Assembly (NCBI RefSeq): GCF_000166355.1
Contig: NC_014652.1
Location: 960,001 to 1,024,000 of the forward strand
Direction: 5' to 3'
Origin: Caldicellulosiruptor hydrothermalis 108
GTDB lineage: Bacteria; Bacillota; Thermoanaerobacteria; Caldicellulosiruptorales; Caldicellulosiruptoraceae
Length of the DNA: 64,000 nucleotides
Shown: piece after piece, positions 7,044 through 8,804 of the stretch
Layout of the letters: every line of letters begins with the position of its first letter
Numbering within the stretch: the stretch's first letter is position 1
The notes under the pieces: model-generated
Seen by the model: the letters and a program-made list of their open reading frames with translations, nothing else
Told to the model about the DNA's origin: nothing
The model's database searches: none
Program-made: the position numbers and the translations under genes

Positions 7044-7083
7044 AAAAAGAGGTCATGGCAACTTGCCACGACCTCTTTTTTTG
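7044..7083 (+). terminator. Rho-independent terminator after the nucleotide-sugar dehydrogenase
   Basis: AGAGGTC-A-TGGCA / TGCCA-C-GACCTCT forms a 12-bp stem (one internal mismatch) with a 3-base loop at 7048-7076, followed by a T run. Confidence 0.92.
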
Positions 7084-7163
7084 GATATAGACCTTCAAAA
7101 TAAAATTTGGGGGGTTTTGCAGATATGATTATATAAAAATTTTAGCAAAAAAACAATATTGTC

Positions 7164-7192
7164 TTGTTATTAATATTAACCTGTGCTATAAT
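7164..7192 (+). promoter_or_regulatory. Sigma-A promoter for rpsB-tsf
   Basis: TTGTTA at 7164-7169, a 17-base spacer, and a perfect TATAAT at 7187-7192. Transcription would start near 7199, leaving a leader of about 100 bases before rpsB. Confidence 0.8.
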
Positions 7193-7198
7193 ATTGTC

Positions 7199-7291
7199 GG
7201 CTTTGTAAAAAAGCAGAGTCGGAAATCTTCGGTGGAAGGCATAAAAAGCCTTCTTATTATCCGGCTCGAAGAAAAACCGAATTGAGGGAGG
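7199..7291 (+). ncRNA. Structured rpsB leader RNA (candidate ribosomal-protein S2 autoregulatory leader)
   Basis: The leader folds into a stacked element: an outer helix TCGG (7219-7222) with CCGA (7277-7280), a purine-rich internal loop, a helix CTTCG (7227-7231) with CGAAG (7267-7271), and an inner hairpin GAAGGC (7235-7240) / GCCTTC (7248-7253) with a 7-base loop. The structure ends only a few bases before the AGGGAGG ribosome site at 7285-7291, and there is no terminator T run after it. That position suggests control of translation initiation, as in other r-protein leaders where the protein binds its own mRNA. S2 as the ligand is an inference from the downstream gene. Confidence 0.6.
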
Positions 7292-7301
7292 TAAAAAGAA
7301 G

Positions 7302-8078
7302 ATGCCAGTTTTAACTATGAAACAGCTTCTTGAAGCAGGTGTGCATTTCGGTCATCAGACACGCAGATGGAATCCCAAGATGGCTGAGTACATCTTTACT
7401 GAAAGAAATGGGATTTATATCATTGACCTTCAAAAGACAGTAAAGAAAATGGACGAAGCTTATGAGTTTGTAAAGTCTCAGGTAGCAGAAGGTAAAATTG
7501 TGCTCTTTGTTGGAACAAAAAAGCAAGCTCAAGAGACAATCAAAGAAGAAGCAGAAAGATGCGGAATGTTTTACATCAATCAACGATGGCTTGGTGGACT
7601 TTTGACCAACTTCAGAACAATAAAGACAAGAATAGAAAGGTTAAAAGAGCTCCAGCGAATGGAAGAAGATGGAACATTCGAAGTTCTGCCCAAGAAAGAA
7701 GTAAATCTCTTGAGGAAAGAGAAAGAAAGGCTTTTGAAGTATCTTGGTGGTATTCAGAATATGCCACGCATTCCCGACATTCTGTACATTGTTGACCCAA
7801 GAAAAGAAAGAAATGCTGTGCTTGAGGCAAGAAAGCTTGGGATTCCAATAGTTGCGATTGTCGATACAAACTGCGACCCTGACGAGATTGACTATGTAAT
7901 TCCTGGAAATGATGATGCAATCCGTGCTGTAAAGCTCATTACATCTAAAATTGCAGATGCTGTGATTGAGGGAAGAGAAGGTGAGCAGTTTACACCTGCT
8001 ACAACTTCATCTCAAGAAACTGACAAAGCGTCTGAACAGATGGAGATAACAGTTGATGATGGCATAGATGAAGAATAA
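7302..8078 (+). CDS. rpsB: 30S ribosomal protein S2
   Basis: 258 residues, a usual length. The N-terminal signature [22 protein letters not shown] is the S2 hallmark, and the family's second signature ([12 protein letters not shown]) is present near residue 165. The C-terminal 25 residues form an acidic, low-complexity tail. S2 joins late in 30S assembly and is needed for binding of S1 where present. AGGGAGG precedes the ATG. The gene has its own promoter and structured leader and is followed 37 bases later by tsf, the almost universal rpsB-tsf pair. Confidence 0.98.
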
Positions 8079-8115: not shown

Positions 8116-8730
8116 ATGATTACTGCTGAGATGGTGAAGGAGCTCAGAGAAAAAACAGGTGCTGGTATGATGGACTGCAAAAAGGCTTTAGAAGATGCAG
8201 GCGGCGATATGGACAAGGCAATAGAACTTTTGAGAGAAAGAGGCCTTGCAAAGGCTGCAAAGAAGGCTTCACGTGTTGCGGCAGAAGGTATTGTTGAAAG
8301 CTATATCCATGGAAATGGCAGAATTGGTGTTTTGGTAGAGATAAATTGCGAGACAGACTTTGTTGCAAGAAATGAGGAGTTTAGACAATTTGCAAAGGAT
8401 ATTGCTATGCAGATTGCAGCAGCAAATCCAAAATATGTTTCAAGAGAAGAGGTGCCTCTTGATGTAATTGAAAAAGAAAAGGCAATTTTAAGACAGCAGG
8501 CTTTGAATGAAGGAAAGCCAGAAAATGTTGTTGACAGAATTGTTGAGGGTAGGCTTGAAAAGTTCTTTGAAGAGGTTTGCTTGCTTGAGCAGCCTTGGAT
8601 TAAAAACCCTGATATGAAGATAAAAGACTTGCTCACAGAAAAAATTGCAAAAATTGGCGAAAATATTGTTATAAGAAGATTTGCAAGATTTGAAAGAGGA
8701 GAAGGAATTGAAAAGGCTGCTTCATGTTAA
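8116..8730 (+). CDS. tsf: Elongation factor Ts
   Basis: 204 residues, the short form common in thermophiles and many clostridia (E. coli EF-Ts is 283). The UBA-like N-terminal domain carries [19 protein letters not shown], and the core carries ETDFVARN, which contacts EF-Tu and helps displace Mg-GDP. EF-Ts is the nucleotide exchange factor for EF-Tu. AGGAGGG lies 8 bases before the ATG. It is co-transcribed with rpsB and followed by a strong terminator. Confidence 0.98.
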
Positions 8731-8750
8731 AATTTTAAATATGGCAGAGG

Positions 8751-8792
8751 AAGGGAACACTATTTTATTGAAAAGTGGTGTTCCCTTTTTTT
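8751..8792 (+). terminator. Terminator after tsf
   Basis: AAGGGAACAC (8751-8760) pairs perfectly with GTGTTCCCTT (8778-8787), followed by a T run. It separates rpsB-tsf from pyrH. Confidence 0.93.
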
Positions 8793-8804
8793 GAGCAAAA
8801 ACTC

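Follow-up and report, generated by a model that had tools for sequence, protein, structure and literature searches.

The rpsB motif (Meyer et al. 2009, PMC2704228) is the S2 r-leader found in Proteobacteria, Cyanobacteria and some Firmicutes. The E. coli counterpart precedes the rpsB-tsf gene pair (annotated tff; Rfam RF00127 t44), where surplus S2 represses the rpsB-tsf message and the level of tsf falls. According to a review (PMC10931766), the E. coli S2 operator excludes the ribosome-binding site, S2 needs S1 as a companion, and the details of S2 autoregulation are unclear even for E. coli.

Elsewhere in the phylum of the genome analyzed here, many rpsB genes are preceded by CACACG, a two-part P1, GGUGC, P3, GGAGG and then AACC before the Shine-Dalgarno sequence. 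An alignment (A2) was assembled from 57 of these ordinary leaders, hand-picked from 92 that had been cropped by pattern (the pattern missed 4 of 96, and L027 was dropped from the leader set because its stretch is cut at a contig end). Its covariation, 437 double-changed cells versus 142.8 ± 12.0 after shuffling, lies far above both controls. The covariance model built on these 57 leaders, all from outside the family of the window's genome (R1), matched the rpsB leader of E. coli (21.8 bits, E 3.3e-6 in 1.4 kb) and, under strict filters, 253 of 299 phylum genomes, with rpsB directly downstream in all of the best 30 of these 253 matches; on these grounds the ordinary element was equated with the rpsB motif. 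By this measure the S2 leader is common across the phylum as sampled (253/299), and this is the figure to be read as a rate, since the 92/92 matched in a second collection of ordinary leaders (A5, selected from 127 loci) reflects the exclusion of most odd leaders from it. The remaining 46 genomes gave no R1 match and may harbor additional divergent S2 leaders; among the 20 of these misses that were listed, the window's genus is represented by five members, all five unmatched. Three other sampled families of the same class (f2, f3 and f4, the last comprising L015 and L016) carry ordinary leaders matched by R1. Leaders of other forms were seen upstream of rpsB in L102, L106, L112, L154, L159 and L163.

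In the ordinary leaders the pseudoknot is mostly short. Counted as Watson-Crick pairs from the U of GGU, helices of one to six pairs occur in 1, 8, 55, 14, 10 and 4 of the 92 A5 leaders, respectively. In a strict test that took the last AAC before the Shine-Dalgarno sequence as the 3' strand, so that the first two pairs are partly fixed, the third pair was Watson-Crick in 74 of 92 leaders versus 56.9 ± 2.5 after shuffling (0/5000), the fourth was not significant (1175/5000) and the fifth was weak (63/5000), with kinship uncontrolled throughout. A cruder test gave a weaker signal (mean 3.51 versus 3.31 ± 0.08, 14/1000). A Shine-Dalgarno-like GGAGG also stands at the end of P1 in 85 of the 92 leaders and in E. 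coli, where the window has CGAAG; in ordinary leaders it is possibly a decoy or standby site.

The window is a 64,000-nucleotide stretch, positions 960001-1024000 of a 2.77-Mb single-contig genome, in which rpsB is followed by tsf and then by pyrH and frr. The features of the rpsB locus are as follows.

7164-7192, + strand: promoter TTGTTA-17-TATAAT with TG before the -10 element (pattern scan, 10/12 matches)
7216-7223, + strand: 5' strand of P1, GAGUCGGA, pairing with 7260-7267 over 8 bp
7228-7233, + strand: 5' strand of the pseudoknot, UUCGGU, in the junction before P3; full complement of 7276-7281
7235-7240, + strand: 5' strand of P3, GAAGGC, pairing with 7248-7253 over 6 bp
7248-7253, + strand: 3' strand of P3, GCCUUC, pairing with 7235-7240
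7260-7267, + strand: 3' strand of P1, UCCGGCUC, pairing with 7216-7223
7268-7275, + strand: purine linker GAAGAAAA, placed by the model alignments on GGAGGAAAAA of ordinary leaders
7276-7281, + strand: 3' strand of the pseudoknot, ACCGAA, in the tail after P1, ending 4 bases before the Shine-Dalgarno sequence
7286-7292, + strand: Shine-Dalgarno sequence GGGAGGU, 4 bases past the pseudoknot 3' strand
7302-8078, + strand: rpsB, 30S ribosomal protein S2, 258 aa (TIGR01011, 369.2 bits)
8116-8730, + strand: tsf, elongation factor Ts, 204 aa (TIGR00116, 246.3 bits)
8745-8793, + strand: probable intrinsic terminator after tsf, a 22-bp hairpin with a T run (-28.8 kcal/mol, z -7.11)

Given the promoter at 7164-7192, transcription of rpsB would start at about 7199-7200. 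The terminator at 8745-8793, which is absent from the list returned by the terminator pattern scan, probably closes an rpsB-tsf unit. The preliminary description had placed a structured leader of about 100 bases between promoter and start codon, and this is borne out by the promoter, the fold and conservation within the family. It had likewise claimed that no terminator follows, and indeed the five terminator-like sites listed by the pattern scan are all on the minus strand, with none on the + strand in 7200-7301. The minimum-energy fold of 7200-7301 has -27.5 kcal/mol (z -2.61; 2 of 200 shuffles equally low), and P1 and P3 are present in it at 37, 60 and 75 °C. With coding sequence added (7212-7350), z is only -1.02 and 27 of 200 shuffles are equally low. 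A 5' hairpin at 7200-7214, also part of the minimum-energy fold, was dropped from the element, because by eye one of its pairs is broken in L011 and L013, most of the genus otherwise keeping it, and because it is unrecognizable in L014. Pairing of a P3 strand with the Shine-Dalgarno sequence was also noted by eye.

The helices identifiable near 7219-7280 are P1, P3 and the pseudoknot, the last being a crossing helix that lies beyond any nested fold and had not been spelled out in the preliminary description. When the letters of both are shuffled, junction and tail give a 6-bp Watson-Crick match with a probability of 0.021. Conservation is the stronger argument for the pseudoknot, since neither strand differs in any of the family's 13 genomes. 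This family set (L002-L014) holds 12 genomes of the window's genus and one of another genus; rpsB was found in all 61 genomes searched, and in every one of the 13 the leader is alignable and directly upstream of it. A MAFFT alignment misplaced P3 in some rows, and the alignment behind the pair counts had been adjusted to P1 and P3. Once the pseudoknot was added, the 20 pairs of the three helices are formed in 196 of 196 cells with letters across 10 distinct leaders (13 genomes), the L014 row (alignment A4) being gapped in one pair of P1 and at a P3 base. Double-sided changes occur at two of the eight pairs of P1 and one of the six of P3 (0/500 shuffles), each in a single row: two in L014, the most distant leader, and one, in P3, in L010. 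The covariation check that had been proposed thus yielded three compensated pairs in P1 and P3 and none in the six pairs of the pseudoknot, which never vary among the family genomes.

Compared with the rpsB motif, the window leader has the same position upstream of rpsB, a P1 with a junction, P3, and a pseudoknot between junction and tail (PMC2704228). The helix numbered P2 there is absent, as the same text allows for Firmicutes; P1 is one 8-bp helix where the motif has a long one; and the pseudoknot is 6 bp long, against the three pairs reported for Firmicutes. With E. coli it shares the gene pair, the topology and the GGU x ACC core of the pseudoknot, but it has none of CACACG, GGUGCC and GGAGG, which the E. 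coli leader retains. With the ordinary Bacillota leaders of A2 and A5 it shares P1, P3 and a pseudoknot just before the Shine-Dalgarno sequence, but it lacks the inner half of P1 together with the GAUGA bulge, so that P1 is one segment rather than the two-part helix with a GAUGA-type internal loop of A2; the motif of Meyer et al. itself calls for no more than a long P1. Six Watson-Crick pseudoknot pairs are present in 13 of 13 leaders of the window's family versus 4 of the 92 selected ordinary ones. Of the A2 consensus letters, CACACG, the CC of GGUGCC, GAUGA and GGAGG are missing, while GGUG and AAAACC are retained.

The preliminary description could name no known structure to which this leader corresponds. 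That holds for Rfam, which gave nothing over the window at gathering score (RF00127 t44 threshold, 44 bits) and no t44 among the six relaxed matches, at E up to 10, in 7100-7400. Rfam gathering scores were reached by none of eight rpsB loci of other families tested, and when t44 was run against four loci with ordinary leaders it matched L018 alone, at 34 bits (E 3.5e-4). The kind of element, however, is known, its topology being that of the rpsB motif and S2 leaders. The sequence feature is real, and no description of its form in this family was found in the article texts searched; the alignment of Meyer et al. (PMC2704228) may already include relatives of this sequence.

Whether the family's leader descends from the ordinary element was addressed with covariance models in both directions. 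R1 scored the window leader at 9.8 bits (E 1.0), rank 2 of 25 matches in 64 kb, which we infer would correspond to an E value on the order of 1e-3 for the leader of about 100 bases alone. The alignment covers the whole leader, with P1 on P1, GGUG on GGUG, P3 on P3 and CGAAGAAAAACC on CGGAGGAAAAAACC, the inner helix alone being deleted. At the 12 remaining family loci the leaders scored 8.5-12.0 bits, L014 through a 23-base fragment and L012 with another place outscoring the leader. In the whole genome the window leader is absent from the three R1 matches at E <= 10; the top-scoring one (17.1 bits), located where a dehydrogenase gene ends, was taken for chance. In the reverse direction, a model built from seven leaders of the window's family (R2) recovered all 13 family leaders, and in a phylum scan of 398 sampled genomes it matched 8, every one of them from the window's genus. 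When applied to 25 hand-selected rpsB loci of other families (L152, L159 and L163 among them from genomes without an R1 match), it weakly matched the leader's place in 10, where 0.63 would be expected by footprint, and found nothing at the leader in the other 15. The binomial probability of this enrichment, 6e-10, or 3e-6 when near-identical leaders are merged and 7 taken for 10, is rough, because Shine-Dalgarno letters are common to all gene starts. Singly the matches are weak (best E 0.037), and three come from the near-identical leaders L022, L028 and L030; leader matches hold ranks 1, 3 and 4 of 47, and those three alignments place P1 on P1.

Weak model scores and missing consensus letters are also what an S2 leader of independent origin would produce, one that arose in this family to do the same job and came to resemble the rpsB motif. 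There is precedent in unrelated structures that likely bind one r-protein (PMC7247131). We nevertheless consider this origin unlikely, as R1 aligns with the leader end to end in one direction and R2 finds leaders in the other, and as the ordinary leaders of the three other sampled families of the class mean that divergence needs fewer events than independent origin. The alignments in both directions, the position and the shared topology point to homology of the family's leader with the rpsB motif and S2 leader as likely, though short of proof. The leader is thus most probably a divergent member of this class serving as an S2 operator, one that has lost the inner part of P1 and the majority of the consensus letters and whose pseudoknot has 6 bp, 3 being commonest. 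The preliminary reading of an S2 autoregulatory leader stands as the best-supported prediction, on the grounds of gene context, conservation and resemblance to the rpsB motif.

The moderate significance of the fold (z -2.61, and -1.02 with coding sequence) would also suit a constitutive 5' structure that stabilizes the message or offers the ribosome a standby site, with no control by S2. Set against this is a conserved pseudoknot beside the Shine-Dalgarno sequence, where E. coli has its S2 operator, and we regard such a structure as improbable. Less probable still is a two-state switch in which UCUUCGGU pairs either as UCUUCG (7226-7231) with CGAAGA (7267-7272) or, through UUCGGU and ACCGAA, as the pseudoknot. 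The alternative helix is fully paired in 9 of 10 distinct family leaders and its duplex energy is close to that of the pseudoknot (-5.6 versus -6.2 kcal/mol), but it crosses P1 and uses the last base of P1, and the purines it recruits are also explained by the GGAGGA of ordinary leaders. It was rejected because it is broken in L014, where CGAAGA is lost, three of six alternative pairs fail and P3 is shortened, yet both pseudoknot strands are kept.

For the S2 operator, the predicted sequence of events is the following. P1 would carry the hairpin P3, and UUCGGU before P3 would pair with the ACCGAA tail just upstream of the Shine-Dalgarno sequence. S2 made beyond the places available on new 30S subunits would bind and stabilize this pseudoknot, and by analogy with E. 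coli it should lock it next to the Shine-Dalgarno sequence and hinder initiation, keeping the 30S subunit off the rpsB start. Repression of rpsB would lower S2 and, through the shared message, EF-Ts. Since the window pseudoknot stops 4 bases before the Shine-Dalgarno sequence, such blocking would have to be steric; in some ordinary leaders the pseudoknot strand extends into the Shine-Dalgarno sequence (for example L029 ACCAGGAGG and L060 ACAGGAGG), which fits a mechanism that blocks initiation. The E. coli operator, with its exclusion of the ribosome-binding site and the help of S1, implies that direct blocking may be wrong, and the mode of repression is the least certain step.

The bases gained by the family's pseudoknot occupy the place of the inner P1 strand. 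Tentatively, the operator may have been rebuilt by helix exchange, with the strand of the lost inner P1 helix passing to the longer pseudoknot, which would make it a natural minimal S2 operator. Under helix exchange, S2 would have to recognize the junction of P3 and pseudoknot without the letters that E. coli and ordinary Bacillota leaders have in common. If true, a naturally shortened leader that lacks most of the shared letters and has an extended pseudoknot would reveal which part is essential. Relatives of the class with ordinary leaders are probably thermophiles too; if so, thermophily by itself does not account for the form of this leader.

Upstream of the locus, a 17-pair hairpin at 7044-7080 with T runs on both sides, listed on the minus strand by the pattern scan, is probably the terminator between the preceding sugar-nucleotide dehydrogenase gene and rpsB. 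Between it and the rpsB promoter lies an element at 7080-7121, TTTGGATATAGACC-TTCAAAATAAAATTTGGGGGGTTTTGCA, which by eye hardly varies across all 12 members of the genus examined, with the exception of five G instead of six in L006, and is apparently better preserved than the promoter spacer. A genome-wide count gives one exact copy of its core (7102-7121) and two copies with 3 mismatches.
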